Positions 2,969-27,800 of a DNA stretch of 31,614 nt are shown in pieces. How positions within the stretch are numbered: position 1 is the stretch's first letter; each line of letters starts with the position of its first letter. The stretch is taken from the IMG/VR virus record IMGVR_UViG_3300006100_000046, positions 1-31,614 of that record; one strand, written 5' to 3'. The DNA is from a virus. The position numbers and the translations under genes are program-made. Under the pieces are notes generated by a model. That model saw only the letters and a list, made by a program, of their open reading frames with translations, ran no database searches and had not been told where the DNA came from.

Positions 2969-3763
2969 ATGAAATTAAATGTTGTTTTACGCACTTGTGA
3001 TCGTACAAGTTTACAAAGCGATCGTATCGTACCTAAAAATGAGTGTGTATGGCGATGCCTGAATTCTCTGAGTAGAAGTTTAGAAAAATCCAAAGTAGAT
3101 TTTCAATTGCACATAGTAGACGATTATTCAAGTGCAGAAACAGTTGATAAAATACAAACTATTGCTCCCAAGGGCACAACATTTGATTTACTACCCGAAC
3201 GAGATCAAACTGGTCTCAATGGTAAACAAAAATCAAGATACTCAGTTAAACAGGCCTACGATTATATTCACCGGTTGCCCGAAAATGAATTGGTCTATAT
3301 AGTGGAAGATGACTACTTGCACTATCCTGACAGCATTAAACTTATGATTGCTGCTTATGAATATTTTGTTAGTCTTGATACTAGTATGAGTATAGGAATA
3401 TTCCCCCAAGATTTTAATCAGATGTACCCACATCCTGAAAATCCATTTAACCACGTATATGTAAGGCCTTGCATAGTACTTCCCGGGCCTGACCGTTACT
3501 ATAGAACCACTTGGTACACACAAGAATCTTTTTTAGTCGCCAAATCATTGATTACCAAATACCGAGATGGCTTTGATAAGCTATTGAAAATTGGCTCAGA
3601 TGATGTTTCATGGGAAGGCAGTAGTTTAAGTACAGTTTGGAATAAACCTGATGTTAAAATGTTAATGCCCTTGGGCACACACACAATACATTTAGGTGCT
3701 GAAAGAGACATATCTTTCTTTGTCAAAGATTGGCAAAAACTTTGGGAGCGAAATCGAGTATGA
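2969..3763 (+). CDS. Family 2-like (GT-A) glycosyltransferase
   Basis: A 264-aa protein without membrane segments. The N-terminus (MKLNVVLRTCDR, residues 1-12) is a beta strand leading into a nucleotide-sugar site; LHIVDDYSS near 47-55 and VYIVEDDYLHYP near 108-119 carry acidic clusters typical of GT-A folds, the second being the probable DxD-like metal site. It should transfer a sugar from a nucleotide donor to a surface or protein acceptor; donor and acceptor cannot be read from the sequence. Its stop overlaps the start of the UDP-galactopyranose mutase gene (ATGA), so the two are co-translated and a galactofuranose donor is a reasonable guess (inference). Confidence 0.8.
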   Translation: MKLNVVLRTCDRTSLQSDRIVPKNECVWRCLNSLSRSLEKSKVDFQLHIVDDYSSAETVDKIQTIAPKGTTFDLLPERDQTGLNGKQKSRYSVKQAYDYIHRLPENELVYIVEDDYLHYPDSIKLMIAAYEYFVSLDTSMSIGIFPQDFNQMYPHPENPFNHVYVRPCIVLPGPDRYYRTTWYTQESFLVAKSLITKYRDGFDKLLKIGSDDVSWEGSSLSTVWNKPDVKMLMPLGTHTIHLGAERDISFFVKDWQKLWERNRV

Positions 3764-4752
3764 ACTATTTGGTAGTCGGGGCAGGATTCAGTGGTGCCAC
3801 AGTTGCTAGAATGTTAGCAGAACAAGGGCACACTATCACAGTAATAGATCAACGTCCACACATTGGTGGTAATGCATACGATTATGTTGACCAATACGGT
3901 CTGAGAGTACACAAATACGGTCCTCATTTGTTTCACACCAGCAATAAAAAAGTTTATGATTGGTTGAGTAGATTCACCGAGTGGGTACCTTACGAACACT
4001 ATGGTAAAGCATTGTTAGCCGACGGTACTTATGTGCCTTGGCCCGCTAACCTAAATACCTTGGATCGTGTTCCTGCAGATGATTATGTCAAAACTTTTAT
4101 CGAACCTTACTCTACTAAAATGTGGGGCAAGTACTATAAAGAGTTAGATCCTGAAGTGTTGAATAGGGTCAGGATTCGCGATAATCGTGACAATCGGTAT
4201 TACGAAGATACTTATCAAGTGTTTCCTGCAAACGGGTACGAAGCATTGTTTACAAATATATTTGATCATCCAAACATCACAGTGAAATTGTCTACTCCGT
4301 TTGACCGAACATTGGAAACAGCGTTTGATCATACATTTAACAGTATGGCCATCGATGAATACTATGATTACTGTTACGGTGCATTGCCCTATCGTTCAAT
4401 AAAGTTTCATCATTATAGTTTGCCTGTGCCTCATTTGTTTCCTACTACAACTGTTAATTTTACTCACGACGGTCCTTACACCCGTGCTACAGAATGGAAA
4501 CACATTTCAGCACACGGAGAAAATCCCCACTATACATCAATCACCGTAGAAGAGCCCTGTGACCCGGCAGAAGTCAACGGAGAAAAATATTACCCAGTGC
4601 TGACTCCTGCAAATAAACTGTTGCATAAAAACTACAAAGCCATACCCAATGATCGTGTGACTTTTATTGGTAGATGCGGTAATTATGTCTACTTGGATAT
4701 GCATCAAGCAATATCTTCTGCTATGGCAATTGTTGACTATTATTCCAAATAG
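3760..4752 (+). CDS. glf: UDP-galactopyranose mutase
   Basis: Flavoenzyme that interconverts UDP-galactopyranose and UDP-galactofuranose, the donor for galactofuranose in O-antigens and capsules. The FAD-binding motif GAGFSG is at residues 7-12, followed by the IGGNAYD block and HKYGPHLFHT, both hallmarks of the family. TRATEWKHI is the equivalent of the conserved Arg/His region near the substrate. At 330 aa it is shorter than the usual 365-390. The start at 3760 is chosen because it overlaps the upstream stop as ATGA and because the FAD motif then sits at the expected distance from the N-terminus; an upstream in-frame ATG at 3730 would add ten residues and overlap the previous gene by 34 bases. 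It implies that the phage makes its own UDP-Galf. Confidence 0.95.
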   Translation: MNYLVVGAGFSGATVARMLAEQGHTITVIDQRPHIGGNAYDYVDQYGLRVHKYGPHLFHTSNKKVYDWLSRFTEWVPYEHYGKALLADGTYVPWPANLNTLDRVPADDYVKTFIEPYSTKMWGKYYKELDPEVLNRVRIRDNRDNRYYEDTYQVFPANGYEALFTNIFDHPNITVKLSTPFDRTLETAFDHTFNSMAIDEYYDYCYGALPYRSIKFHHYSLPVPHLFPTTTVNFTHDGPYTRATEWKHISAHGENPHYTSITVEEPCDPAEVNGEKYYPVLTPANKLLHKNYKAIPNDRVTFIGRCGNYVYLDMHQAISSAMAIVDYYSK

Positions 4753-4761
4753 TGTTATAAT
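4733..4761 (+). promoter_or_regulatory. Sigma70-type promoter, leaderless downstream gene
   Basis: TTGACT (4733-4738), 17 bases, TATAAT (4756-4761), overlapping the end of glf. The next ATG (4768) is six bases after the -10 box, the expected +1. An inverted repeat ACTATT-ATTCCA-AATAGT (4736-4753) covers the spacer. Confidence 0.75.
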
Positions 4762-4767
4762 AACAGT

Positions 4768-5244
4768 ATGGAAAAAATACAACCAAAACTTTATGTATTA
4801 ATCGGAGTACCGGCTAGCGGTAAAAGCACGTGGGTCAACGCCCAAAATTGGTCAAATGATTGTGCTATTGTCAGCACAGACTATTGGGTAGAGCGTGAAG
4901 CCAAGAGTCGAGGTGTTACTTATTCAGAAATTTTTGAAGAGTATATGCCTACTGCACTGGAGTTGATGCTTCATATGGTAGAACTTGCCTACGAAGAAGG
5001 TCGTGATATTATATGGGATCAAACCAGTACTACAGTATCCAGTCGTCTAAGAAAAATAAAGTTACTGCCCGATTACTATAAAATTGCGGTAGTGTGTAAA
5101 ACCCCGCCGATGAGTGAAATAATGACCAGAGTGAACAACAGACCTGGTAAAAATATTCCACGCGATGTGATTGTGAAAATGATTAAAAATTGGGAAGATC
5201 CTACCCTTGAAGAAGGATTTGACGAAATTTGGAATATAAACTAA
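4768..5244 (+). CDS. P-loop kinase, polynucleotide-kinase-like (AAA_33 type)
   Basis: A 158-aa single-domain P-loop protein. The Walker A motif GVPASGKST is at residues 13-21. VSTDYW (about 35-40) and DIIWDQTST (about 79-87) match the substrate and Walker-B-like positions of the zeta-toxin/PNK kinase group, and NRPGKNIPRDVI (about 127-138) carries the lid arginines. The closest family I know is the 5'-kinase half of T4 PseT polynucleotide kinase; there is no C-terminal phosphatase domain. It has its own promoter and apparently a leaderless message. The tRNA array and a metallophosphoesterase nearby make an RNA-end-repair role attractive, but the substrate could also be a small molecule. Confidence 0.8.
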   Translation: MEKIQPKLYVLIGVPASGKSTWVNAQNWSNDCAIVSTDYWVEREAKSRGVTYSEIFEEYMPTALELMLHMVELAYEEGRDIIWDQTSTTVSSRLRKIKLLPDYYKIAVVCKTPPMSEIMTRVNNRPGKNIPRDVIVKMIKNWEDPTLEEGFDEIWNIN

Positions 5245-5256
5245 AGGTGTAACATA

Positions 5257-5430
5257 ATGGCAGGCAAAGCGAAATCAGTTTACTTAACTGTAAACAAAAA
5301 AGGGTCCACAAAGACAGAGTTTACCAAAGTATTCTTTGATGCTAAAGCATACAACGAATTTGTTTCTACAGAAGAGTTTAAGGCTAAATGGCCCGTTGAA
5401 GAATATAACATAATAAAAGAAACCTATTAG
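5257..5430 (+). CDS. Small hypothetical protein
   Basis: A 57-aa protein starting MAGKAKSVYLTVNKKG, with a ribosome site AAAGGTG six to eight bases before the ATG. It is lysine-rich with alternating hydrophobic residues in the first half and ends in EEYNIIKETY. It has no cysteines or membrane segment. It lies 12 bases after the kinase and 20 before the phosphoesterase, in the same direction, so all three are probably one message. I do not recognise a family. Confidence 0.7.
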   Translation: MAGKAKSVYLTVNKKGSTKTEFTKVFFDAKAYNEFVSTEEFKAKWPVEEYNIIKETY

Positions 5431-5450
5431 TAAAATCAAAGGAGGCAACT

Positions 5451-6035
5451 ATGCCTGGCGTATTTTTAGTCAGTGACACACACTTTGGTCACGCAGGAGT
5501 CTGTAGATTTATGCGAGATGACGGTATTACAAAATTGCGTCCTTGGGATAACACCGAGGAGATGGATGAAGCTATGGTCAAGGCTTGGAATGAACGGGTA
5601 AAGACCACTGACAAAGTCTACCATTTGGGAGATGTTGTTATCAATCGTAAGGCCTTGAACATTATGCATCGCTTGAACGGAGACAAAGTCCTGATCCGAG
5701 GCAATCACGACATCTTCAAAGACGAAGACTATCGTGTGCATTTTCGTGAGTTACGTGCATACCACGTGATGAATGGATTGATATTGAGTCACATTCCGGT
5801 GCATCCAGATAGTTTGGGCCGATTCGGAACCAATATTCACGGACATTTGCACAGTAACCGTGTAATGACCTCCGCCGGCACCAAAGCCAAGCCAGAAATT
5901 GATGTTAGATACCATTGTGTATGCGTAGAACAAACTCCAGACTTTGCGCCCATCTTGTTTGAAGATGTGTTAAAAAGAATCACAAACGAAGGCGGTACTA
6001 TCGGATTTAAGAATGGCAACGGCCCTATAATGTAA
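5451..6035 (+). CDS. Calcineurin-like metallophosphoesterase
   Basis: A 194-aa protein with the full metallophosphoesterase signature: SDTHFGH (Asp9, His11, His14), HLGD (Asp61), GNHD (84-87), LSHIP (His114) and HGHLH (130-134). These residues bind two metal ions and hydrolyse phosphomono- or diesters. The short single-domain form is common in large phages and in bacterial YfcE-like proteins; its substrate is unknown. A strong GGAGG (5441-5445) five bases before the ATG fixes the start. It follows a PNK-like kinase gene, so it could supply the missing phosphatase or cyclic phosphodiesterase step of RNA repair (inference). Confidence 0.92.
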   Translation: MPGVFLVSDTHFGHAGVCRFMRDDGITKLRPWDNTEEMDEAMVKAWNERVKTTDKVYHLGDVVINRKALNIMHRLNGDKVLIRGNHDIFKDEDYRVHFRELRAYHVMNGLILSHIPVHPDSLGRFGTNIHGHLHSNRVMTSAGTKAKPEIDVRYHCVCVEQTPDFAPILFEDVLKRITNEGGTIGFKNGNGPIM

Positions 6036-6057
6036 ATACTACACTAATCTATAAACT

Positions 6058-7836
6058 ATGAAATACGTAACACCCCCAAAACAACCATTACAAACAAACA
6101 CACAAACGCTGATTCCAACCGGTGTTAATTTAGTTGAACTAAATGCAACTGCAATGGAATTACACAACAACCAACAATACGATGCTGCCAGAGAAAAATA
6201 TCAAGCAGTACTTGCAGTTGAGCCGAATTATTTTGATGCATTGCACCTATTAGGTCTAATGGAGGCTCAGGCTGGAAATGTAGAGTTGGGTTTGGAATTG
6301 TTAGCCAAAGCAGAAACAGTTAATCCCGATGTTGCTTTCTTGTACAACAATCGTGCAGGCATTTATAAACTAAACGGAGATCCGGCAGCTGCGTTAGAAG
6401 ACTGCGATCGAGCACTAAAGCTCAACCCCAGATTTACTGAAGCACAATTGAATCGTAGTCTAATATTATTAGATTTACGCAGACTTGACGAAGCATTGGC
6501 TGCTTCCGAAAAAGCATTAAAAATGTTGAACCATCCCAGTATCCACAATACTCGCGGAGCAATCTTGAAAGAGATGGACAAGATTAATGAAGCACAGGCC
6601 AGTTTTACTGCTGCAGTAAAGTTAGATAAAACATATCCCGATAGTTATAACAATCGTGGAGTTATCCTGATGGAAATGGGAAAAACTGAAGATGCTATCA
6701 AAGATTTTCTGACGGCATTGGAACTTAACCCATCGCATAATGCTGCCCGTGCAAATTTAGCAGGTGCATATTCAGACGCACATAAATTTGATTTAGCAAT
6801 AGAAACCTACAATCAGGTATTAGAAGCAAATCCAACCGACAATCAAGTTAGAACACATAGAGCTATGTGTTTGTTAAATCTTGGAGATTTTGAAAATGGT
6901 TGGGCAGAATACGAAGCTCGTTGGTACGTGACTGAAGGTCCTATGTATAGAAGTTTACCAGAATACGAGCAACCTTTGTGGACAGGTGAACAACCATTAG
7001 AAGATCGTATACTTTTATTGTACTCAGAACAAGGACACGGCGACGGATTGCATTTTAGTAGATATGCAAAATATGCAGTTGAAGTATTAGGTGCAAAAAA
7101 GGTGTATCTACAAGTAGACGAATCTTTAGTTGAATTGATGGAAAGTCTATCTCCTAAAATAGAAGTAATTCCATTCCAACAGTCTGCAGTTATTCAATTT
7201 GATTATCATTGCAGTCTCATGAGTATGCCTTTGGCCTGTAAAACCAGTTTAGATAATATTCCTTATCCTGACAAGTATTTGAAAGCCCCTACTAAAAAAG
7301 TAAATGCTTGGAAAAAGAAATTAGGCACTACTGATAAATTGCGTGTGGGTCTATGCTGGAATGGTGGATACAGAGCTGAGCCACAGTTTCAAATTTCCAA
7401 TAATAGACGTAACATTTCTTTTGGCAGATACAAGAGTTTTGCCGACGACAATGTTGAGTTTTACAGTTTACAAAAAGGTGAAGCTGCAGAAGCTGAATTA
7501 GCAAAAACACTTAAAGATAAAAAGTGGAAAGGTCCAAGACCTATTAATTTTGTAGATGAATTCAAGTCTTATGCTGATACTGCGGCCTTGATTATGAACC
7601 TAGATCTAGTTATTACTGTTGACACCAGCGTAGCACATTTGGCAGCTGCAATGGGCAAAAAAGTATGGATTTTAAGTAGATTTGATGGTTGCTGGAGATG
7701 GATGTTGGAAAGATCCGACTCTCCTTGGTATGACAGTATAACACTTTATAGACAAACTGAATTTGGCGTATGGGATGATGTGATTGAGCGAGTTGCCAAA
7801 GACCTGCACTCATTGAGTGATAATTTTTCAAAGTAA
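6058..7836 (+). CDS. TPR protein with C-terminal glycosyltransferase (GT9/GT41-like) domain
   Basis: A 592-aa soluble protein. Residues about 25-285 are six to seven tetratricopeptide repeats, visible from recurring motifs such as ALHLLGLMEAQAG, LYNNRAGIYKLNGD and SYNNRGVILMEMGK spaced by 34 residues. After GWAEYEARW comes a GT-B-like C-terminal part: LLYSEQGHGDGLHFSRY, LRVGLCWNGG and VDTSVAHLAAAMGK, the last being the donor-side motif shared by heptosyltransferases and OGT-like enzymes. The TPR region probably binds the acceptor, as in bacterial and phage protein O-glycosyltransferases. A TGTAAATA late-type box lies at 6031-6038. No Shine-Dalgarno is seen. Acceptor and sugar are unknown. Confidence 0.88.
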   Translation: MKYVTPPKQPLQTNTQTLIPTGVNLVELNATAMELHNNQQYDAAREKYQAVLAVEPNYFDALHLLGLMEAQAGNVELGLELLAKAETVNPDVAFLYNNRAGIYKLNGDPAAALEDCDRALKLNPRFTEAQLNRSLILLDLRRLDEALAASEKALKMLNHPSIHNTRGAILKEMDKINEAQASFTAAVKLDKTYPDSYNNRGVILMEMGKTEDAIKDFLTALELNPSHNAARANLAGAYSDAHKFDLAIETYNQVLEANPTDNQVRTHRAMCLLNLGDFENGWAEYEARWYVTEGPMYRSLPEYEQPLWTGEQPLEDRILLLYSEQGHGDGLHFSRYAKYAVEVLGAKKVYLQVDESLVELMESLSPKIEVIPFQQSAVIQFDYHCSLMSMPLACKTSLDNIPYPDKYLKAPTKKVNAWKKKLGTTDKLRVGLCWNGGYRAEPQFQISNNRRNISFGRYKSFADDNVEFYSLQKGEAAEAELAKTLKDKKWKGPRPINFVDEFKSYADTAALIMNLDLVITVDTSVAHLAAAMGKKVWILSRFDGCWRWMLERSDSPWYDSITLYRQTEFGVWDDVIERVAKDLHSLSDNFSK

Positions 7837-7875: not shown

Positions 7876-8847
7876 ATGTCACTCAAACAAGAAATTCTCA
7901 AATATAGCCGCCAAGAAACTATGGCACCACTATCCAGCTGGTTCGAAGCCCAATTGGACGATCTAATTGCACAAAATGTCTATGTAGATCAAAACACGCT
8001 GGAAGATACTGGCCGCAAATTGGTTAGCGGACTAATTGCCTATGCCAAAAAATACAACATTCAAACTGCCGCTATCGGTATGAGTGGTGGTGTAGACAGT
8101 GCACTGACTGCTGCGTTATTCAAAGCCGCAGGATGGCGAGTAATAGGTATCACTATGCCTATTCACCAAAAACAAGAAGAAACTGACCGTGGGGTTGAAG
8201 CTTGTAAAGCACTAGGCATTAGCCACAAACACGTGGATTTGACCAAATCATATGATACACTACTAAAAAGTATCGCAGAGCACGACCCTGCTATTAACAA
8301 TGCTGACCAAGCATTACGCAGAGGCAATCTAAGAGTCAGATTGCGTATGATGACCGTCTACAACGAAGCCAGTGCTAACAAAGGTTTGGTTGCCAGTACT
8401 GATAACTTCAGCGAGTTGGCTGCTGGATTTTGGACACTACACGGCGATGTAGGTGATGTTGCTCCTATTCAAAGTCTGCTAAAAAGTTGGGAAGTTCCTA
8501 AGCTAGCAGAAATCTACGGTGTACCTGACAGCACAGTATTTGCTCGTCCCACAGACGGACTTGGTATTACTGATGGCGACGAAGATCAATTTGGATTCAG
8601 TTATCTTGAATTTGATCTAGTACTAATGAAACTGTGTCAAGCACCTAACTTGACTACACGTTTGGAAATGATCAACTACTTGAATCTGCCAGATGACGAG
8701 CACGTGGTCAAAGTAAATCGTATCTTGGATCGTATCAAGGGCAGTACATTCAAGAGAGCCAATCCCTACAATTTAGATCATCCACTACAACCAGATCGTT
8801 ATCCTGGTCTAAAAAGTGTTGACACTAACTTGTGGACCGCTATCTAA
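7876..8847 (+). CDS. nadE: NH3-dependent NAD synthetase
   Basis: A 323-aa protein that should adenylate and amidate nicotinate adenine dinucleotide to NAD. The PP-loop motif SGGVDS is at residues 70-75. NLRVRLRMMTVYNEA and STDNFSELAAGFWTLHGD match the helix and NaAD/ATP-binding regions of NadE, and ARPTDGLGITDGDED the C-terminal loop. There is no N-terminal glutaminase domain, so ammonia is the nitrogen donor. It is somewhat longer than the about 275 residues of E. coli NadE. A CTTAAATA late-like box lies at 7846-7853. Phages use NAD-salvage enzymes to recover from NAD-depleting defences; NadE alone would act only if NaAD is available. Confidence 0.93.
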   Translation: MSLKQEILKYSRQETMAPLSSWFEAQLDDLIAQNVYVDQNTLEDTGRKLVSGLIAYAKKYNIQTAAIGMSGGVDSALTAALFKAAGWRVIGITMPIHQKQEETDRGVEACKALGISHKHVDLTKSYDTLLKSIAEHDPAINNADQALRRGNLRVRLRMMTVYNEASANKGLVASTDNFSELAAGFWTLHGDVGDVAPIQSLLKSWEVPKLAEIYGVPDSTVFARPTDGLGITDGDEDQFGFSYLEFDLVLMKLCQAPNLTTRLEMINYLNLPDDEHVVKVNRILDRIKGSTFKRANPYNLDHPLQPDRYPGLKSVDTNLWTAI

Positions 8848-9367: not shown

Positions 9368-10141
9368 ATGAATTCTGTAAAAAACTATGTGGTGTGTGCT
9401 CACCGCCGAATAAAAAGTACCAAATGGATTTGGAAAGATACTAAAGACGAGGGCGATATCTACGAACTGTATCGACAGATGTGTTTGAACAGTTTGGCCA
9501 GTGCAAGACATTTTCTCGAAGGTGATTGGGAATATGTTGTACTTGATGAAGAAATTGAACACATCAATGACGCAATGCCATTGAATAATGATCGTGTGCA
9601 CGACCTTTGGCACCGTGAACCCTGCAACATTCTATGGGTCGGACCTGACGTGCAGTTTGTTAAGCCTACAAAACTGTTTGGCGAGTTCAATGAATTCAGA
9701 CTGTTTAACTGGACTGATCCCAAAGTCTGGTACGAACCTAACCAATATAATGCTCGATTCGATAACTTGTTTAACAATGATCTACAGTATTATCCCAGCA
9801 ATATGGATCCTAAGTTGTGGGAAATTGAACGTGAAATGCGTGCAGCTTGGGACACAACTGACGGAATGGGCAGCTATAACAATCAACAGATCATCCATAA
9901 TACCATGTTCTGGAGTCAGGGATTAGAGTGGGAAGATGCACATCGTCCTGACTTGTTTTATCAAGCACAGTGGATTCCCAATTGGGCCAGCATAGCTACT
10001 CAAGACGAGTGGAACGGTTGCAAATACGAAGATGCACAAGTGATCCATTGGCACAGCAGTCGCCACGCACCCACCAAGCTAGCTTGTATGCAACAGGTTA
10101 ACGAAGCGTTGGGAATCGAACCTGCCACTGAACTAAAATGA
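9368..10141 (+). CDS. Putative glycosyltransferase (GT-A-like)
   Basis: A 257-aa protein beginning NYVVCAHRRIKSTKW, rich in Trp and Tyr. WEYVVLDEEIEH and NILWVGPDVQFVKP (around residues 88-101) have the form of the strand plus acidic metal site of GT-A sugar transferases, and the C-terminal VIHWHSSRH fits the closing His of such enzymes. It ends in an ATGA overlap with the SDR gene, so it is translationally coupled to the sugar-nucleotide operon. It probably transfers the product of that operon (inference). No Shine-Dalgarno is evident at the ATG. Confidence 0.65.
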   Translation: MNSVKNYVVCAHRRIKSTKWIWKDTKDEGDIYELYRQMCLNSLASARHFLEGDWEYVVLDEEIEHINDAMPLNNDRVHDLWHREPCNILWVGPDVQFVKPTKLFGEFNEFRLFNWTDPKVWYEPNQYNARFDNLFNNDLQYYPSNMDPKLWEIEREMRAAWDTTDGMGSYNNQQIIHNTMFWSQGLEWEDAHRPDLFYQAQWIPNWASIATQDEWNGCKYEDAQVIHWHSSRHAPTKLACMQQVNEALGIEPATELK

Positions 10142-10932
10142 AAATAGCAGTTTTAGGTGCAAGAGGATTCTTAGGATCTTTTCTCTGTCGTTGGCTGAAT
10201 AAAAAGCACATAGTCATAGAAGTCACAAGAAATATACTCGATCTCACTGACTACATTAGTGTTAGCCAATGGCTAATGACCGTACAACCTGATGCAGTTA
10301 TTAATTGTGCTATCAGTGGCGGTGGTCAGGGAATAGAAGATATTAGTTATTCGGATGTCCAGCGTGATCTACAGATATTTCTTAACTTTTACAACAATAC
10401 CGGTGGTTTTAAGTACATAAATATTAGTAGTGGTGCTGAGTTTGATCGTCGTACAGATATTGACAAAAAACCAGAATCTGCGATACTGCTTTCCCATCCA
10501 CTGGAGTCATACGGCTTTACCAAAAACACCATTTCCCGTATGGTTCTCAACAGAGACAATTTTTATAATCTTAGATTATTTGGTTGCTTTGACCGCACAG
10601 ATCCCCCATTTAGACTATTCAAAAAGTTTAAGCTACAACAAGCAATTGCTGTAACTGATAGGTACTTTGACTATATCAGTGCCAGCGATTTTGCACGAGT
10701 AGTTGATTACTATCTGCAGGATATTGTGTTGCCCAAAGATATCAATTGTGTATACGAAGACAAATTACTGTTAAGCGAACAACTAAAACTGTTTGCAAGA
10801 TATCACATAACCAACGCTGAGATTAATGTAATTGGCACTGATAATAAAAACTACACAGGCAATGGTCAAGTGTTGGCAGATTTGGATATCCTACTAGAAG
10901 GATTAATAAAAGGAATTAAAAAATATGAGTAA
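10138..10932 (+). CDS. NAD(P)-dependent sugar-nucleotide reductase/epimerase (extended SDR)
   Basis: A 264-aa Rossmann-fold protein. The cofactor motif GARGFLG is at residues 7-13; DAVINCAISGG, YINISSGAEF and the catalytic YGFTK (Tyr-x-x-x-Lys) follow in the order of extended short-chain dehydrogenases such as RmlD and other 4-keto-sugar reductases. Residues at the C-terminus are shorter than in RmlB-like dehydratases, which fits a reductase. The ATG overlaps the previous stop (ATGA) and its own end overlaps the next gene by eight bases. In this operon it is the obvious candidate for the final 4-keto or acetyl-side-chain reduction. Confidence 0.82.
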   Translation: MKIAVLGARGFLGSFLCRWLNKKHIVIEVTRNILDLTDYISVSQWLMTVQPDAVINCAISGGGQGIEDISYSDVQRDLQIFLNFYNNTGGFKYINISSGAEFDRRTDIDKKPESAILLSHPLESYGFTKNTISRMVLNRDNFYNLRLFGCFDRTDPPFRLFKKFKLQQAIAVTDRYFDYISASDFARVVDYYLQDIVLPKDINCVYEDKLLLSEQLKLFARYHITNAEINVIGTDNKNYTGNGQVLADLDILLEGLIKGIKKYE

Positions 10933-11869
10933 AAAAGTTGTTTATGTAACAGGTTGCTTGGGATTTATTGGAATCCACGTGACCCGGGCTTGCCTTGAAC
11001 AAGGATGGTATGTAACTGGTGTGGATAAAATTACCTACGCCAGTAATACAAAATTCCTAGATGAGTTCTTGGCAAATCCCAATTTCCAGTTTATACAAAA
11101 AGACATTAACGATTTGGATAGACTGTATGAGTGTGATTATATCATTAATACTGCCGCAGAAACACACGTGGATAACAGTATTATGAGCAGTGATGTGTTC
11201 TTAAAAAGCAATGTAAACGGAGTGCATCACTTGTTGAAGCTGATTACCGAAAAAGCCAAATACAAAATGCCCACACTACTGCATTTTAGTACAGACGAAG
11301 TCTACGGTGATATCCTTGAAGGCAGTCACGTGGAAACAGATTTGTTAAAACCCAGTAATCCCTATAGTGCTACTAAAGCAGCCGCAGATATGTTGATTTT
11401 GGCTTGGGCAAGAACTTTTAACTTACCATACGTTATTGTTCGTCCTACCAACAACTATGGCATTGGCCAGTATGTGGAAAAACTTATTCCCAAAAGTTGT
11501 AAACATTTGACCATTGGCAAACAAATTGATCTACACGATCGTGGCCTTCCTGTTCGCACTTGGTTGCACGCAGAAGATACTGCTCGTGCAGTATTAACCA
11601 TTATCAACAGTGGGGTTCAAAACGAAATCTACAACATCAGTGGCAACGCTGAATTGCAAAACATTGTGGTAGTTCAAAAGATTATCGAATACTTTAACGG
11701 TGACAAGGACTATGCCAAATATCTTTTTGATATGGTGCGTGTGGGACAGGATCAAAGATACAGTATCGATGATACTAAACTCAAAACTTTGGGCTGGCAA
11801 CCACAAGCAAAGTTTGACAAAGAGCTGAAGAAGATAGTACAATACTACAAGAACAACTTTATTTGGTGA
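10925..11869 (+). CDS. Nucleotide-sugar 4,6-dehydratase (RmlB-like)
   Basis: A 314-aa extended SDR. GCLGFIG (residues 10-16) is the NAD-binding loop, AAETHVDNS the conserved acidic substrate region, FSTDEVYGD the Thr-Asp-Glu catalytic triplet of 4,6-dehydratases, YSATK the Tyr/Lys pair, and RPTNNYGIGQY-EKLIP the family signature. It should convert an NDP-glucose to the NDP-4-keto-6-deoxy sugar. The sequence looks closer to RmlB (dTDP) than to RfbG (CDP) by eye, yet the next gene is of the type that acts on a CDP sugar in known systems, so the nucleotide is open. AAGGA precedes the ATG. Confidence 0.92.
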   Translation: MSKKVVYVTGCLGFIGIHVTRACLEQGWYVTGVDKITYASNTKFLDEFLANPNFQFIQKDINDLDRLYECDYIINTAAETHVDNSIMSSDVFLKSNVNGVHHLLKLITEKAKYKMPTLLHFSTDEVYGDILEGSHVETDLLKPSNPYSATKAAADMLILAWARTFNLPYVIVRPTNNYGIGQYVEKLIPKSCKHLTIGKQIDLHDRGLPVRTWLHAEDTARAVLTIINSGVQNEIYNISGNAELQNIVVVQKIIEYFNGDKDYAKYLFDMVRVGQDQRYSIDDTKLKTLGWQPQAKFDKELKKIVQYYKNNFIW

Positions 11870-11872
11870 TCA

Positions 11873-13192
11873 ATGGAAGAAATATTAAAACTCGTGCGTG
11901 AATATGCAGAACAAAAATCTGCAAAGAAAACTTGGACTGCTGGTAAGGATTTTGTCAACTATGCAGGTGCTTACTATGATGCGGAAGAATATGCCGCAGG
12001 TGTAGAAAGTCTATTAGGTGGCTGGCTGGCCATGGGAGATGCTGGATTAAAATTCGAGCGTAGATTCCCCAAGCAGTTTGGTAAACAGTTGGGCATTGTT
12101 ACCAACAGTGGTAGTAGCAGTAACTTGTTAATGATGAGTGCACTAACCAGCAAGCGAGGACATAACCTGCCCAAAGGCACAAAAGTGCTGATGCCTATTG
12201 CAGGATTTCCCACTACACTAAACCCTACACTACAAGTGGGATTTACTCCAGTGTTTGTGGATATTGAATTGGATTCTCTGAATCTCGATCTTGATGCAGT
12301 TGAACAAGCATTGGCTGCAGATCCAGAAATTCGTGTTATTACTTTTGCCCACGTGTTGGGTAATCCTCCCAATATGGATCGATTGATGCAGTTGGTCGAC
12401 AAGTATAATCTTATACTACTAGAAGATTGTTGTGATGCATTGGGCAGTACTTATGATGGCAAGCCCTTGGGTAGTTTTGGTCTAATGGCCAGTTGCAGTT
12501 TTTATCCTGCACACCATATGACCATGGGCGAAGGCGGATATGTTGCTACAGATGATGCCAATACAGATGTAATACTTCGCAGTTTCCGTGAATGGGGCAG
12601 AGGTTGTTACTGTGTTGGACCAGATGCCAACAAACTCAAATGCGGTACTTGCGGCAAGCGTTTTAACAATTGGATTGAAACACTACCTGATGAAATATTC
12701 GACCACAAGTATGTTTACGATGAGATCGGCTATAACCTAAAACCAATCGAACTACAATGTGCTATGGGTCTAAAACAGTTGGATAAACTGCCAGAGATTC
12801 ACGCACTGCGCCGTCGTAACTATCAATTGCTGTATGATATCTACAGCAAGTACGAAGAATTCTTTATTGTTCCCAAGCCCCAGGCCAAGAGTGATCCCAG
12901 CTGGTTTGCTTTCCCTATTACCATTAGGTCAAGCGAACACTTCAAACGCAGTGACATTGTGGACTATCTCGAAGAGAATCTAATTCAAACTCGTCCATAC
13001 TTTGCTGGCAATATTATGCTACAACCCGCATACAGTCACTTGATGGATCCACAGTTGGCCAAGAACAACTTCCCCAATGCTACCCACGCTATGACAAATA
13101 CTTATTTCCACGGTACAAGTCCGGTGATTACACCCGAACAAATTGCTTACATTGGAGAAAAAGTAGATGGTTTTATGAGTCTATTCACATGA
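11873..13192 (+). CDS. ddhC: NDP-4-keto-6-deoxyglucose 3-dehydratase (DdhC/RfbH type, PMP and [2Fe-2S])
   Basis: A 439-aa DegT-fold protein. At the position of the PLP lysine it has His-His (SFYPAHHMTMGEGG, residues 214-215), the mark of the PMP-dependent 3-dehydratases rather than aminotransferases. The iron-sulfur motif is visible: Cys187, then exactly 57 residues to Cys245, one residue to Cys247, and then Cys257 and Cys260 with CGKRF. This matches the known C-X57-C-X1-C pattern of Yersinia E1; the last spacing is 12 instead of 7 residues. With a reductase partner it removes the 3-OH, giving the 3,6-dideoxy-4-keto sugar. No E3-like reductase is seen in the window. It starts three bases after the dehydratase and ends in an ATGA overlap with the aminotransferase. 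Confidence 0.93.
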   Translation: MEEILKLVREYAEQKSAKKTWTAGKDFVNYAGAYYDAEEYAAGVESLLGGWLAMGDAGLKFERRFPKQFGKQLGIVTNSGSSSNLLMMSALTSKRGHNLPKGTKVLMPIAGFPTTLNPTLQVGFTPVFVDIELDSLNLDLDAVEQALAADPEIRVITFAHVLGNPPNMDRLMQLVDKYNLILLEDCCDALGSTYDGKPLGSFGLMASCSFYPAHHMTMGEGGYVATDDANTDVILRSFREWGRGCYCVGPDANKLKCGTCGKRFNNWIETLPDEIFDHKYVYDEIGYNLKPIELQCAMGLKQLDKLPEIHALRRRNYQLLYDIYSKYEEFFIVPKPQAKSDPSWFAFPITIRSSEHFKRSDIVDYLEENLIQTRPYFAGNIMLQPAYSHLMDPQLAKNNFPNATHAMTNTYFHGTSPVITPEQIAYIGEKVDGFMSLFT

Positions 13193-14358
13193 AAAAATTA
13201 AGTACTGCCGCAATGAACATTGATGGACAACCAATGTTCAAATATTTAGATCGTGCCCGTAAGCTAGAAGCTGAAGGTCGTTCAATGATACATATGGAGA
13301 TTGGTGATCCAGATTTCTGCACACCACCAAACATCACTATGGCGGCTGTTCGAGCGTTAGCTGAAGGACGTACACACTATACCAGCAGTTGGGGCGACTT
13401 GGAGTTTAGAGAAACCATTAGAACTGCTACTTACAAAAGTAGAAAGTTTATGCCAGACTTGAATCAAGTATTGGTAGTACCCGGTGCTAACATTGGCATT
13501 TACTATGCGGTGTTTACACTTTGCGATCCCGGAGAGGAAGTATTGGTACCAGATCCTGGCTTTGCTACCTACTACAGTTCAATTAAAATGTGCGGAGTAA
13601 ACGCAGTTCGTGTTCCTTTATTAGAGGAAAACGGATTTAGAATGCAGGCCACAGATGTACGTGCACGTATCACTGACAAAACACGTTTACTGATTCTAAA
13701 CAGTCCCAACAATCCCACTGGTGCAGTAATGACTCGGCAGGAGTTGAAAGACATCTACGATCTTTGTGTAGAAAAAGATATCTACTTATACAGTGATGAA
13801 ATTTACAGTCGTATGATTTACGATGACTATGACTTTAGCAGTCCTGCACAGTATGATCAATGTCGCACACACGTTATATTAAGTAATGGATTCAGCAAGG
13901 CCTTTGCTATGACTGGATGGCGATTAGGTGCACTAATCGGTCCCCCTGAAGTTATGGAACGTATGAGTCAGTTGTTACAAACCACCAGTAGTTGCGTTAG
14001 TAGTTTTATTCAAAGTGCAGGTACCGAAGCCATACGTGGTCCACAGGATGCAGTATATTCAATGATGAAAACCTATGAGCAACGCAGGGATCTATTGGTA
14101 GAGGGCCTAAACAATGTGCCTGGATTCTCTTGCCAAAAGCCTGGCGGAGCATTTTATGTGTTTCCCAATATTACAGGCACTGGACTTACTGATGTTGAAG
14201 TATGCGAACAACTAATGGATCAAGCTGGGGTAGTTACTGTTCCAGGCAGTTGTTTTGGAGAACACGGAGCCGGACACATTAGACTATGCTATGCTACAGA
14301 CAGAAATAGCATAATGTCGGCAATTGCAAGAATTAAACAATGGGCAGAAAAATTATGA
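13189..14358 (+). CDS. Class I/II PLP-dependent aminotransferase
   Basis: A 389-aa fold-type I aminotransferase. HMEIGDPDF near the N-terminus, NSPNNPTGAV (171-180), YSDEIY (Asp203, Tyr206) and SNGFSKAFAMTGWRLG with the PLP lysine at 237 are all present, and the C-terminal IRLCYAT carries the carboxylate-binding Arg. It resembles aspartate/alanine-type aminotransferases, which use amino and 2-oxo acids, rather than DegT sugar aminotransferases. In this operon it could supply a 2-oxo acid such as pyruvate to the TPP enzyme that follows, or act on the product; that is inference. ATGA overlaps on both sides show tight coupling. Confidence 0.92.
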   Translation: MKKLSTAAMNIDGQPMFKYLDRARKLEAEGRSMIHMEIGDPDFCTPPNITMAAVRALAEGRTHYTSSWGDLEFRETIRTATYKSRKFMPDLNQVLVVPGANIGIYYAVFTLCDPGEEVLVPDPGFATYYSSIKMCGVNAVRVPLLEENGFRMQATDVRARITDKTRLLILNSPNNPTGAVMTRQELKDIYDLCVEKDIYLYSDEIYSRMIYDDYDFSSPAQYDQCRTHVILSNGFSKAFAMTGWRLGALIGPPEVMERMSQLLQTTSSCVSSFIQSAGTEAIRGPQDAVYSMMKTYEQRRDLLVEGLNNVPGFSCQKPGGAFYVFPNITGTGLTDVEVCEQLMDQAGVVTVPGSCFGEHGAGHIRLCYATDRNSIMSAIARIKQWAEKL

Positions 14359-15374
14359 GAGTATGCGATTGGATTGCGGAATATCTTTATAGTCAAGGAG
14401 TAGAACGTGTACACGGCCTTATGGGCGGTGGTGCAAGCGGTCTAAACGATGGCTTTATCAAACAAGGACAAATTGGTTATATTTGTTATCACCACGAACA
14501 GGGTGCAGGTCATGCTGCCATTGGAGAAGCAAAATACACGGGCCGTTTGTCAGTAGTCAATCCCACAACTGGTTGTGCTGGCACCAACTGTGCTACCAGT
14601 GTACTAGATGCTTGGCAAGACAGTACACCTGTGTTGTTTCTCAGCGGTAATGTCAGACTAAACACCTGTAGTGGTTATATCAATCAAACACAAGGTATTA
14701 ACATTCGCAAGTACGGTATTCAAGAACACCACGTGGTTGATACCTACAAGTCAATGACCAAATTCAGTTACTTTGTCACTGATGTAAAAGATGTTGCGTA
14801 TGTTATGCAGTATGCGGTGTATATTGCACAGGCCGGAAGACCAGGTCCAGTTTGGGTTGATATTCCCGGAGACATACAAACTGCAGAAATGCCCGCACGC
14901 TACAGAGAATACACTCCACCGACATTGCCCACAGTGGCAAAAAATGCGGTAGATTATTCTGCAATTAAAACTGCCATAGCAAATAGTCAACGGCCTATTG
15001 TATTGGCAGGCTACGGCATCAGACAAGCCAATTGCGTAGATGAATTTGTTGAATTTATCGAACAGTATCAAATGCCTTTTGTTAGTACATATGGAGCGAG
15101 AGACTATATTACAGACTCGCACTCTTTAAGTATTGGTGCAGTGGGCATCAAAGGCAGTCGTGCCGGTAACTTTGCACTAACCAATGCTGATTTGTTATTG
15201 GTGTTGGGCAGTAGTCTGGGTGGTAGTGTTATTGGCTACGATCCAAAACAGTTTAGTCCTGCAAGTTATAAAATTGTAGTGGATATTGATTCAAACGAAT
15301 TAAAAAAGAATATTGTTAAAATTGATGCTGCTTACAACATCAGCTTAAAAGAATTTTTCGGAGCAATGCTATGA
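14355..15374 (+). CDS. Thiamine-diphosphate enzyme, N-terminal half (acetolactate-synthase-like)
   Basis: A 339-aa protein covering the PYR and central domains of the acetolactate synthase/pyruvate oxidase family. HHEQGAGHAA holds the catalytic Glu (Glu48) that activates the thiazolium. TTGCAGTNCATSVLDAWQDSTP and PGPVWVDIPGDIQ follow in family order, and the central domain (about 185-335) has RPIVLAGYGI and ADLLLVLGSSLGGS. The pyrophosphate-binding domain is missing here and is encoded by the next gene, overlapping as ATGA. The start at 14355 overlaps the aminotransferase stop; an ATG 15 bases upstream adds only five residues. Together the two halves total 583 residues, the normal length of one chain. 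Confidence 0.9.
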   Translation: MRVCDWIAEYLYSQGVERVHGLMGGGASGLNDGFIKQGQIGYICYHHEQGAGHAAIGEAKYTGRLSVVNPTTGCAGTNCATSVLDAWQDSTPVLFLSGNVRLNTCSGYINQTQGINIRKYGIQEHHVVDTYKSMTKFSYFVTDVKDVAYVMQYAVYIAQAGRPGPVWVDIPGDIQTAEMPARYREYTPPTLPTVAKNAVDYSAIKTAIANSQRPIVLAGYGIRQANCVDEFVEFIEQYQMPFVSTYGARDYITDSHSLSIGAVGIKGSRAGNFALTNADLLLVLGSSLGGSVIGYDPKQFSPASYKIVVDIDSNELKKNIVKIDAAYNISLKEFFGAML

Positions 15375-16105
15375 CACGTGAAGAATGGATCAATAAATGT
15401 AATGATTGGAAATCTGCTTGGCCAGTTATTCAGCCCGAATACTTTGATGATGCCGATGGTACGGTGAATATCTACGCAGTATTAGATGCAATTAACCAAC
15501 ACAGCGGTGCATACCAAGTGTTAATGGGAGATGCTGGCAGTATCAGCTACGCAGGCCCAGTAGCATTGAAGGCCAAAGCAGGTCAAAGATTTGTGTTTAA
15601 CCCTGCTCAAGCTGATATGGGATGGGCACTGCCTGCGGCCATTGGAGTGGCACTTGCTGGAGGCAATGTTATTAGTATCATCGGTGACGGTAGTTTTATG
15701 AGTAACTTACAGGAGCTAGCAGTTGTTCGCCAACACAACCTAAATATCAAGTTTATTATTTTGAATAACAGTGGATACTTGAGTATTAGAAACACACAAA
15801 CCAAATACTTTAACGGTCGAGTGTTTGGTACTAGTAACGAAACTGGACTTTGGTTCCCTAAATTCAAAGACATTGCAGATTCGTTTGAAATTGGTTATGC
15901 AGAAGTCAATGGTGTTGCGGGATTAGCTGACTTTGCCCAATTATTATCAGCACCAGGTCCTGCTATCATCAACTGTATTTGCAAAGCCGAACAGGAAATT
16001 TTGCCAGCACAGGCATTGAAAAATGGCAAGCAAGCTGGGTTACACGATATGACACCATTCTTGACAGACGAAGAATTATCTGCGGAAATGATAGTCAAAG
16101 TCTAA
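15371..16105 (+). CDS. Thiamine-diphosphate enzyme, C-terminal half (acetolactate-synthase-like)
   Basis: A 244-aa protein equal to the PP domain. The ThDP-binding motif begins GDGSFM (105-107 GDG) and ends LNN (132-133), the standard GDG-x(24-27)-NN block with the metal ligands. NPAQADMGWALPAAIG is the segment before it. The first about 30 residues form a linker (EEWINKCNDWKSAW) of the sort found between domains of the fused enzymes. It needs the N-terminal half to make an active site, since the active site forms between PYR and PP domains. Homologous fused enzymes beside rfbH in O-antigen clusters include YerE, which adds a two-carbon unit from pyruvate to a dideoxy-keto sugar. Confidence 0.9.
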   Translation: MTREEWINKCNDWKSAWPVIQPEYFDDADGTVNIYAVLDAINQHSGAYQVLMGDAGSISYAGPVALKAKAGQRFVFNPAQADMGWALPAAIGVALAGGNVISIIGDGSFMSNLQELAVVRQHNLNIKFIILNNSGYLSIRNTQTKYFNGRVFGTSNETGLWFPKFKDIADSFEIGYAEVNGVAGLADFAQLLSAPGPAIINCICKAEQEILPAQALKNGKQAGLHDMTPFLTDEELSAEMIVKV

Positions 16106-16116: not shown

Positions 16117-16509
16117 ATGAGTGCATACTGGCAAGACTATGTAAAAGCTGCTTATGATCTTATACTGGAAAGTGAAGGTCAAACTGCAGTTTACTTGGAC
16201 AATGATGTAGAACAATATGTTGTACATCTTTTTGCAAAAAATTTCCAAAGAACTGATATCGGCGAACAACCAATTGCAATACAGATGTTGGAAGCGGTTA
16301 ATGGTAAACAGTTTGATCGTTATCAAACCATAGCAGATGAATGTTTGCTAATTCACAGTTACCCATTAAAACGCAGACGCTGGCCCACCGAAACTTACTA
16401 TTTGGATATGGGCACCACTGCATACGGTATGGCCAATATTGAAATTATGGAGCATAATTTCCAAACGGCCAGTCAGGTATTACACACAGTTTTCAGCAAG
16501 ATTGGTTAA
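16117..16509 (+). CDS. Hypothetical protein
   Basis: A 130-aa soluble protein starting MSAYWQDYVKAAYDLILESEG. It has hydrophobic helices near both ends and a basic patch KRRRW in the middle, followed by YYLDMGTTAYGMANIEIM. No cysteine motifs or membrane segments. The start at 16117 is chosen because the reading frame further upstream lies inside the TPP gene; a late-like AATAAATA box is five bases before the ATG. I do not recognise the family. It closes the sugar block and is followed by an inverted repeat and an early-type promoter, so it may be the last gene of that unit. Confidence 0.75.
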   Translation: MSAYWQDYVKAAYDLILESEGQTAVYLDNDVEQYVVHLFAKNFQRTDIGEQPIAIQMLEAVNGKQFDRYQTIADECLLIHSYPLKRRRWPTETYYLDMGTTAYGMANIEIMEHNFQTASQVLHTVFSKIG

Positions 16510-24811: not shown

Positions 24812-27800
24812 ATGGCTAAACAAGTACAATGGAGACGTGGAAACACAGCACAAAACAGCACTTTTGTTGGTGCGCCCGGTGAGGTCACGGTTAACACAGA
24901 TAATTGGACTTTAATAGTTCATGACGGAGTAACTGCTGGCGGTTTCCCCATCAACGACATTAATCTTTCTAGTATCAGCAGTAACCTAGTGCCATCAGCC
25001 AATGTGACCTATAGTTTAGGTACTCCAGATCTTCAGTGGAAAGAGTTATTTGTAAGTAATCACACAGTTTGGATTGGTAATGTACCGTTAAGCACAGACC
25101 CAAATGGTGGGTTATTGGTAGGCGGTCAGCCTGTATTGGTAAACAACGGTAATGCCAGTGTAGCCACCAGTGGAAACATCACTGCCAATTACTTTTTTGG
25201 TAATGGACGTTATTTAACTGGAATAGTTTCAACTAGTAACTACGGTGATGCCAATGTTGCGGCATATTTGCAAGGTAACATTACTGCAGGTAATATAGTT
25301 GCTACTGGAATTTTTTATCCAAATGGTCAGCCTATATTAGGCGGCGGTGGCGGAAGTAGTACTGGTACAATATTAAGTAATTCAGCACCAGTTAGCCCTA
25401 CACAAGGTGAACAATGGTTCGACCCAACTGCAGGTCAAATATACATTTATTACGGTAATGCTTGGGTAACTGCAAATCCTGGTATTGCGGGACCGACTGG
25501 ACCAACAGGACCTGCAGGCCCTTCAGGAGGACCACAAGGACCACAAGGACCAGCAGGCAATGACGGCCCACAAGGACCAACAGGACCAGCTGGCGGCCCA
25601 TCGGGACCACAAGGACCAAGCGGACCACAGGGCCCAACAGGCCCTGCAGGTTCACAAGGATACCAAGGACCTGTAGGTGCACAAGGGCCACAAGGCGTAC
25701 AAGGACCACAAGGTATACACGGTAATGTTGGACCAGCTGGCCCATCGGGCATACAAGGACCACAGGGACCAAGTGGTCCACAAGGTCCTAGCGGAGCAGT
25801 GGGTCCCACTGGAATACCTGGTGTTGGCGGAATAAGAGGACTTCAAGGACCACAAGGCGCACAAGGACCACAAGGACCGCAAGGCCCAAGCGGAGCACAA
25901 GGTACTGCAGGAACTAGCGGACTACGTGGCTTACAAGGCCCACAAGGACCGCAAGGCCCGATTGGTGCAACTGGTAATACTGGGCCTTTAGGGCCAAGCG
26001 GTCCAGTCGGTGCACAAGGGCCGCAGGGTCCAGTTGGAGCTCAAGGTCCACAGGGACCGCAAGGCCAAGGCTACACTTATAAAGGCATTTATAGTGCAAA
26101 TGTAGCATATACTCCTTATGATACTGTAACCTCAGGTGGAAATTTATACATTAAAGTTGGTTCAACTACCACTGGTTCTCCGCTTTCCGACGGACTAAAT
26201 TGGAATTTAATTGTTAATGCTGGACCGCAAGGACCGCAAGGTGCAGCCAGCACAGTGCCTGGACCACAGGGTACACAAGGACCACAAGGACCAAGCGGAC
26301 CACAAGGAGCAGCAAGTTCGGTACCCGGACCACAAGGTCCACAAGGACAAACAGGCCCACAAGGACCGCAAGGACCTAGTGGTTTCAACGGTGACAAATA
26401 TGCTACAACTAGTAACAGTACTTGGACTATTACTTCTGTAAACGGTACTAGTGGCACTATTACTATCGGTACTAATCTAAGTTATACTGCAGCTCAAAAC
26501 ATATTTGTAGCAAAAGATGCTTACAATTATCAATTGGCTGCAGTTGTTGATTATTCAGCTAATGGTAGATTACATTTCAGCACCACTGGCTCGTTAGGCT
26601 CAGGAACATATAGTTCTTGGATTATTAACTTAGATGGTGCAGTCGGTAGTGCTGGTCCACAGGGACCTACTGGCTTACAAGGACCACAAGGTCCAAGTGG
26701 TGTTAACGGCAACGATGGAGTACAAGGACCACAAGGACCACAAGGACTGCAAGGTCCAACTGGGGCACGAGGACCACAAGGTACACAAGGACCACAAGGC
26801 CCAATTGGTAATGTCGGTGCGTCGGGCCCACAAGGCCCTCAAGGACCAGTAGGATTTACAGGACCTGCTGGCCCAGCTGGTGCGGCCAGTACTGTACCTG
26901 GACCACAAGGTGTTCAAGGACCAACTGGACCAATCGGTCCTGTGGGTGGAAACGGTCCGCAAGGACCACAAGGACCACAAGGAACATTTGGCGGAACAAC
27001 CAATTTACCGTTAATTACTACCAATACCACAATCAGTACTAGTACTAGTACTGGCGCACTACAGGTTGCTGGTGGTGGCGGAATTGGCGGAAACTTATAT
27101 ATTGGCGGAAACTTAGTTGTACTTGGTACAATCACTAGCGCAGGTAATGTTGTAACTGGCGGAGGCAGTGGTGGAGGCGGTAGCGGTGGATTTACATTTA
27201 ACGGTGCATTGCTAACACTCAGTAATACTGCTACTACAAGCCTACAGGCCAACAACTCGGGTATTTTAGTAGACGGTGCCAATGCCAGCTTGTTATGGAA
27301 TTCAACTTACAATGATTGGACATTTAATACTGGTATTAGAACACTGGGAAATAGCGGAAATATCAGTAATGTTGCTACTTACTTTGGCAATAACATTGTA
27401 CTAACTGGTAATGCAAATGCTGTAAATTACTTTGGTAATAACATTGTAGTAACTGGCTATGCAAACGCTGCAACATTTGTTGGTAATGGTTCTGGTATTA
27501 CATATATATTAGGTTCTGCAGTATCAGGTACTGTACTGTCAGCAGTTACAGCACAATATGTAACAGGATTAACCGCTGCCAATGTTACTAATGCATTAGG
27601 TTTTGTGCCAATGAATAGTAATGCAAGTATTGTAAGTTCAGGAGTTGCACAGTATGTCACTGGTAATATTCAAAGCAATATTAATGGGCTGGGTGTATTA
27701 TCAACAGTTACTGTTAGTGGAAATGCTACAGTAAATGCGTTAACTGTTAATAATTCAGTAACCATTGGCACAACACTAGGAGTTCTAGGAAATATTTATA

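Follow-up and report, generated by a model that had tools for sequence, protein, structure and literature searches.

A T4-like phage operon predicted to make and attach a C-branched 3,6-dideoxyhexose, with a carboligase exchanged among related phages

Tertiary, C-branched sugars are rare and are known from lipopolysaccharide (LPS) and antibiotics. The best comparison for the genes described here is the yersiniose A pathway of Yersinia pseudotuberculosis, with the 3-dehydratase E1 (DdhC), the reductase E3 and the thiamine diphosphate (ThDP) enzyme YerE (PMC12247030, PMC4753412). According to a 2025 review, the use of ketones is known in only three of the nine ThDP superfamilies, namely the decarboxylase (DC; YerE-like), aKADH2 and transketolase (TK) superfamilies (PMC12247030). 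The present work deals with an operon at positions 9368-16105 of the virus record IMGVR_UViG_3300006100_000046 from IMG/VR. The whole record (31,614 bases, a linear fragment of a T4-like phage) was analysed and is referred to as the window. Judging from the protein families encoded, the probable product of this operon is a C-branched 3,6-dideoxyhexose in nucleotide-activated form, which a glycosyltransferase of the operon would attach, and the branch would be swappable across phages.

The operon shares with the yersiniose A pathway an E1-type 3-dehydratase, a YerE-like ThDP enzyme and a reductase, and the chemistry proposed on a 4-keto-3,6-dideoxyhexose is alike in both. In contrast to that pathway, the phage operon has a 4,6-dehydratase of the deoxythymidine diphosphate (dTDP) type instead of the cytidine diphosphate (CDP) type, lacks E3 and nucleotidyltransferase genes, includes an aminotransferase gene and encodes its ThDP enzyme as two subunits. 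The closest solved structure for the latter is JanthE of Janthinobacterium sp. HH01 (PDB 8rph), with which it has the signatures GYLxI..TQ and R..G.Q in common. JanthE, however, is a single chain, about 28% identical to the fused phage relative that was modelled, and reads CDG at the site of the canonical GDG of the window. In actinomycete antibiotics, aKADH2 enzymes (KbDH, AviB1/B2, Pau11/12) and split transketolases, which belong to the same superfamilies, have been proposed to branch ketones, and the phage versions are also split PP/PYR pairs. They differ from the actinomycete enzymes in that the alpha-keto-acid-dehydrogenase (aKADH), TK and YerE-like classes share one slot beside one RfbH core, and in that the phage aKADH and TK pairs (~207+180 and 202+160 amino acids) are too short to hold the C-terminal transketolase domain. 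In the sugar islands of the cyanophages S-SM2 (L167, 149421-150629) and P-TIM68 (L168, 167767-168912), a protein annotated as "transketolase central region" is 39-40% identical to the aKADH-type half. It is a single ORF of about the length of both phage halves, has gone unrecognised as a sugar-branching enzyme, and lies in islands with no annotated RfbH; the genes adjoin a zinc alcohol dehydrogenase and sugar genes. The chlorovirus PBCV-1 also has its own sugar and glycosyltransferase genes, although it is an unrelated virus and the analogy is one of purpose only.

Six enzymes are encoded head to tail on a single strand (Table 1). The preliminary description of this DNA, made from the sequence alone, had placed the genes from the short-chain dehydrogenase/reductase (SDR) onwards correctly, with ATGA or near-zero spacing. 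Two corrections to this layout were necessary. The start of the unit, formerly put at 10138, was moved to 9368, since the upstream ORF, which has a predicted GT-A fold, runs 4 bases into the SDR gene. Furthermore, what had been taken for one acetolactate-synthase-like gene consists of two ORFs. The glycosyltransferase/SDR overlap is of the ATGA type; the SDR and dehydratase genes overlap by 8 bases, and a gap of 3 bases separates the dehydratase from rfbH. In the second half, overlaps of 4 bases (RfbH/aminotransferase), 19 bases (aminotransferase/first ThDP subunit) and 4 bases (between the ThDP subunits) were found. This arrangement is beyond chance, because the same set of genes was found again in numerous independent contigs and the ratio of nonsynonymous to synonymous substitution rates (dN/dS) is 0.04-0.11 where measurable. 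Median dN/dS was 0.036-0.113 for the operon genes measured, which shows purifying selection, versus 0.13-0.14 for two neighbouring phage genes; RfbH was saturated.

Table 1. Positions of the operon, its genes and other features in the window
Feature	Position	Strand	Evidence or remark
Operon	9368-16105	+	six enzymes: glycosyltransferase, SDR, 4,6-dehydratase, RfbH/E1, class I aminotransferase, split ThDP enzyme
GT-A fold glycosyltransferase (predicted)	9368-10141	+	first gene of the unit; predicted fold
Extended SDR, RmlD/epimerase-like	10138-10932	+	Pfam Epimerase 59.6 bits, RmlD 38.9 bits
Nucleotide-sugar 4,6-dehydratase, dTDP-glucose type by similarity	10925-11869	+	TIGR01181
RfbH/DdhC (E1)-type 3-dehydratase, pyridoxamine phosphate (PMP) + [2Fe-2S]	11873-13192	+	NF011936 454.8 bits, over curated cut-off 423
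Class I/II pyridoxal phosphate aminotransferase	13189-14358	+	Pfam PF00155 232.6 bits
YerE-like ThDP carboligase, subunit 1 (PYR + TH3 domains)	14340-15374	+	PF02776 (TPP_enzyme_N) and PF00205 (TPP_enzyme_M)
YerE-like ThDP carboligase, subunit 2 (PP domain; ThDP/Mg site GDG...NN)	15371-16105	+	PF02775 (TPP_enzyme_C) 97.7 bits
Small conserved protein, function unassigned	16117-16509	+	follows the carboligase; ATG read from the sequence
Weak GT2 match	2969-3763	+	Pfam
UDP-galactopyranose mutase homologue	3730-4752	+	Pfam; NCBIfam TIGR00031 268.9 bits, under cut-off 303.75; adjoins the weak GT2 match
Tetratricopeptide (TPR) repeats, then GT9-like domain	6058-7836	+	Pfam; layout reminiscent of O-GlcNAc transferase
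Collagen-like tail fibre	24812-28162	+	PHROG tail fibre matches; ~118 Gly-X-Y triplets in runs of five or more

As the preliminary description had proposed, the ThDP enzyme is YerE-like and not an acetolactate synthase, judging from both its sequence profile and the predicted fold; it is predicted to ligate a 2-oxo acid to a ketone. Subunit 1 had JanthE as best PDB match (164.7 bits), followed by 5ahk from P. protegens, probably the enzyme that the review calls PpYerE (PMC12247030), and then by acetohydroxyacid synthase (AHAS). For subunit 2 the best match was also JanthE, with 114.8 bits versus 62.6 for the next, an AHAS. A profile of the phage ThDP enzymes scored 604.5 bits against JanthE, 462 against 5ahk and 447.5 against E. 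coli AHAS1, and when the predicted model of a fused relative was submitted to Foldseek, ranks 1-6 were all occupied by JanthE chains (best E 4.9e-47). The catalytic Glu of the PYR domain was present in 120/120 relatives, and the PP subunit of the window carries GDGSF and NN. The PP-site sequence NNxGYLxIxxTQ fits JanthE, not AHAS. The position of the Arg of FDDR, which we take to be the acceptor-carboxylate residue of AHAS, is occupied by Ser in the window and by Ser or Ala in the commonest motifs of the split clade. Among named NCBIfam families the closest to both halves are acetolactate synthases, the N-terminal half reaching at best 196 bits with a cut-off of 970; since the halves are short, the fact that both fall far short of every AHAS cut-off is weak evidence alone.

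On the fused relative, the halves meet at a point between residues 341 and 358, and the model of this relative shows a drop in confidence at ~341-350, where a linker joining the TH3 and PP domains would be expected to cause one. In 72 of 85 relatives the halves are joined by the same overlap of four bases (ATGA); at the 13 remaining called junctions the gene caller had taken an upstream TTG, and the ATG of the four-base overlap was found inside in the examples read. A sequencing frameshift as the origin of the split is excluded by the identical junction in these 72 relatives across the phage clade. Since fused relatives exist at 63-65% identity, it was probably in the phage clade itself that the enzyme became split. 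Split YerE-like enzymes would be a new enzyme form.

The E1/DdhC-type 3-dehydratase that had been proposed for the phage was borne out by its NF011936 score and by its best PDB matches, 3bcx and 3bb8, both Yersinia E1; its deoxygenation activity is predicted from sequence. His215 stands at the position of the aminotransferase Lys, and His was conserved in 157/157 relatives. Three of the cluster cysteines (Cys 245, 247, 257 and 260) were present in 150/157 relatives and the fourth in 139/157. Seven relatives without them are ColD-like paralogues, so that the cysteines are kept in all or nearly all E1-type relatives. Such a ColD-like paralogue, together with further dehydratase genes, was observed upstream of the main RfbH in several loci (L100, 3714-4910; L136, 2617-3777; L137, 2599-3840; and L138, L140, L142 and L143); such phages may produce two distinct dideoxy sugars.

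A search of IMG/VR with RfbH gave relatives in at least 478 stretches. From these 478, the 80 best (75-88% identical), picked by RfbH alone, were used as an RfbH-anchored set, and a ThDP carboligase was present in 72 of the 80 loci. It was of the DC type in fused form in 28 and in split form in 20 (some of the latter being one half at a contig end), whereas 14 loci had a pair of the aKADH type and 10 a split pair of the TK type. The aKADH pair is formed by cluster 37, which matches E1_dh with 57.5 bits, and cluster 42, which weakly matches Transket_pyr; in the TK pair, cluster 56 matches Transketolase_N (29.9 bits) and cluster 63 Transket_pyr (65.8 bits). In the reverse test, an RfbH-like gene was found in 79/80 DC-anchored, 71/80 aKADH-anchored and 40/47 TK-anchored loci. 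The superfamilies next to RfbH are exactly the three for which ketone acceptance is known or proposed (PMC12247030). The T4 major capsid gene gp23 was detected on contigs of the DC, aKADH and TK types, which indicates that all three occur in phages. On the RfbH tree (99 proteins; a quick tree with many weak branches) the ThDP type needs at least 24 changes, and therefore the carboligase has been exchanged repeatedly under a conserved RfbH. This exchange among three superfamilies, with the RfbH/dehydratase core kept, suggests that the core is constant and the branch is the variable part. RfbH-linked branching enzymes of the transketolase type would also be a new enzyme form.

With regard to the remaining sugar genes, the dehydratase scored 308.6 bits with TIGR01181 (dTDP type; equivalog cut-off 365.1, not reached) versus 62.3 bits with TIGR02622 (CDP type), and dTDP is thus the more likely sugar nucleotide, rather than the CDP of the preliminary description. 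Its TDEVYGD motif and the Tyr and Lys of YxxxK were conserved in 121/121 relatives. In the SDR, the Tyr of YxxxK was kept in 89/89 relatives and the Lys in 74/89, and the gene occurs alongside all three ThDP types. We propose that it reduces the branch carbonyl, a role like that of YerF. Its earlier identification as YerF itself could not be demonstrated, its similarity being weak and to generic RmlD/epimerase models in a comparison that included no YerF sequence. The protein encoded at 9368-10141 had no Pfam match. Its AlphaFold2 model (mean pLDDT 91.8, pTM 0.90) matched glycogenin best in Foldseek (E 2.7e-7), followed by GT6 enzymes and a PBCV-1 capsid glycosyltransferase, all with a TM of ~0.5, which allows assignment to the fold class only. 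Relatives were present in 73/158 phage loci, and none was found in the phage record collection.

The aminotransferase, whose catalytic Lys was present in 41/41 sequences, was found in 42 loci; in 35 plus 5 of them the ThDP enzyme was of the split form or one of the fused forms nearest to it, and the other two had no called N-terminal ThDP half. Its occurrence with this ThDP clade only fits the role given to it in the preliminary description, that of a source of the 2-oxo acid donor, although amination of the branch is an alternative, and either role may be proposed. Other accessory genes accompany other ThDP enzymes: an HpcH/HpaI aldolase goes with the fused enzymes of intermediate identity, dehydroquinate (DHQ) synthase and a classical SDR with fused enzymes, and NeuB with the fused enzymes of low identity. 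Aldolases and NeuB make functionalised 2-oxo acids. ErwE favours donors of this kind over pyruvate (PMC12247030), and each accessory set may supply a different donor. In loci L041, L045, L060 and L064, which have DHQ-synthase-like, SDR and HpcH aldolase genes, the first two are antiparallel to the ThDP gene; this arrangement suggests a cyclitol-like or unusual 2-oxo acid donor.

The following order of steps is proposed. Host dTDP-glucose would be 4,6-dehydrated by the phage dehydratase, and RfbH/E1 would then remove the C3 oxygen by means of PMP and its [2Fe-2S] cluster, with a host reductase of the ferredoxin or E3 type as electron source. The split ThDP enzyme would decarboxylate a 2-oxo acid, probably provided by the adjacent aminotransferase, and the acyl anion would attack the C4 ketone, so that a tertiary alcohol bearing a keto branch is formed. 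The branch ketone would be reduced by the SDR and the sugar transferred by the GT-A enzyme, for which a phage virion protein is the most likely acceptor and host LPS the second candidate. A branched 3,6-dideoxyhexose, as put forward in the preliminary description, is the best reading of RfbH together with a YerE-like enzyme, but yersiniose as the specific sugar is unsupported, because YerE-like enzymes use many donors.

Several observations count against this pathway. No recognised ThDP enzyme was found in 8 of the 80 RfbH loci, and although most of these are cut-off contigs, the flanks of at least L040 and L076 are ample; conversely, 9/80 aKADH-anchored loci lacked RfbH. The SDR has no specific match to any branch reductase. 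In 20 large related contigs, the E3 reductase (Fer2 domain) was not found and RmlA-type (NTP_transferase) genes were mostly absent. The lack of E3 and a nucleotidyltransferase in the window, already pointed out in the preliminary description, therefore extends to most of these contigs, and the route needs host enzymes. That the host supplies E3, as had been suggested, agrees with the absence of an encoded one; a dedicated host E3 is not necessarily required, since general ferredoxin or flavodoxin reductases are enough for SpnQ, an E1 relative whose substrates are dTDP sugars (PMC8987622), and host reductants may suffice.

The ThDP enzyme might instead be an acetolactate synthase that serves branched-chain amino acid synthesis during infection, with the aminotransferase finishing the amino acids and the sugar genes as mere neighbours. 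The nearest named NCBIfam families and the adjoining class I aminotransferase are in keeping with this, but JanthE is well ahead of AHAS by both profile and fold, the acceptor Arg position is Ser, and neither a regulatory subunit nor other ilv genes accompany the enzyme. Moreover, it is coupled to RfbH in 79/80 loci, and in other phages the slot holds ThDP enzymes that are not AHAS; we regard this explanation as very unlikely. A somewhat less remote, still improbable case is that an unbranched 3,6-dideoxyhexose or an amino sugar is formed, with RfbH or the aminotransferase acting on the sugar and the ThDP enzyme serving some unrelated function. Indeed, SpnQ is able to transaminate if a reductase is lacking (PMC8987622), and the operon includes an aminotransferase. 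That gene, however, is absent from most loci, whereas the ThDP enzyme is nearly always present; its class I fold differs from the sugar-aminotransferase family, and RfbH has His and not Lys. Finally, the genes could be non-functional filler, a "stuffer DNA" explanation left open by Sullivan et al. 2010 for cyanophage sugar islands (PMC3037559). With dN/dS as low as or below that of neighbouring phage genes and with active sites kept, this is barely credible here.

As to the acceptor, a virion protein is slightly favoured over LPS. Placement of the branched sugar on host LPS or O-antigen, for receptor masking or superinfection exclusion, is a possibility of some weight, though we hold it to be doubtful: the known products of YerE-like enzymes are LPS sugars (PMC12247030) and the earlier cyanophage sugar islands were termed LPS clusters (PMC3037559), but no multi-membrane protein, be it a flippase, polymerase or bactoprenol transferase, was found among 1,775 genes within six genes of RfbH. 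The phage therefore brings no flippase or polymerase. Also against LPS, the TPR and GT9-like protein and the collagen-like fibre of the window hint at protein glycosylation, although neither is conserved in the fetched flanks of relatives. The former suggests a phage enzyme for protein glycosylation, and the fibre might, speculatively, be an acceptor. T4-like phages glucosylate their DNA, and a hydroxymethylated base could be the target of the sugar. A thymidylate-synthase/hydroxymethylase fold was nevertheless found in only 2/20 large contigs, and the operon glycosyltransferase has a GT-A fold like GT8 and GT6, in contrast to the GT-B T4 DNA glucosyltransferases. Transfer to DNA is accordingly considered unlikely.

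The claim that no described phage has the full set was sustained, since the set was not found in any of 50,697 phage records. In these records RfbH relatives were at most 43% identical and ThDP matches distant, and a megablast of window positions 9-18 kb gave no match. With tblastn, the ThDP and aminotransferase genes gave distant matches only, many of them unannotated fragments or genes annotated as ilvB/ilvI that resemble host DNA; in several records named as phages (e.g. OR848815, OR847010 and CAKLQH020000017) the acetolactate-synthase-like fragments appear to be contamination from host chromosomes. In open-licence papers no prior description was found of YerE-like enzymes in phages, or of acetolactate synthase with phage nucleotide-sugar genes. 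A scan of genome contigs with the fused ThDP alignment gave five nearest cellular relatives, which are distant (31-37% identical) and come from a Parcubacteria MAG (metagenome-assembled genome), Novosphingobium, Sphingomonas and a Caulobacteraceae MAG. In four of the five, from Sphingomonadales and Caulobacteraceae, RfbH lies beside or near the ThDP gene in the same 10-kb flank.

Outside the operon, relatives of the small protein that follows the carboligase were present in 28 of the 158 related loci, mostly three to four genes after RfbH. The glyco-genes at 2969-7836 possibly belong to the same glycosylation programme as the operon. A conserved unit formed by these genes, the collagen-like tail fibre and the operon is unsupported, since it was not seen in the fetched 10-kb flanks of relatives. 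An NAD synthetase gene (nadE) is located at 7876-8847 (TIGR00552, 138 bits, over the cut-off), and nadE was near the sugar operon in 45/158 related loci; it could serve NAD supply or counter an NAD-depleting defence. The window also contains 13 tRNA genes clustered at 495-2948, with an HNH endonuclease (2346-2807) inside the cluster. Its phage helicase best matches those of Sinorhizobium phage Phosso and PA5oct-like Pseudomonas jumbo phages (51-54%). The tRNA genes, this helicase and the collagen-like fibre mark the window as part of a T4-like phage.

The preliminary description was right in kind but incomplete. Synthesis of a branched 3,6-dideoxy sugar has good computational support, unlike yersiniose itself, and the key points added here are that the YerE-like enzyme is stably split and that three ThDP superfamilies replace one another across many T4-like phages. 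The module brings all three ketone-accepting ThDP superfamilies into one slot and is widespread in T4-like phages, with hundreds of uncultured relatives. We give an even chance to a combinatorial branched-sugar pathway in these phages, in which a fixed 3,6-dideoxy-4-ketosugar core would be combined with exchanged carboligases and their own donor-making genes, so that each lineage would have a different sugar on the virion or on the surface of the infected cell, in a manner resembling antigenic variation. The acceptance of ketosugars by split transketolases, the purpose of large phage sugar islands (functional or filler) and the glycan displayed by the phage become testable questions, and the module is a ready source of new carboligases.

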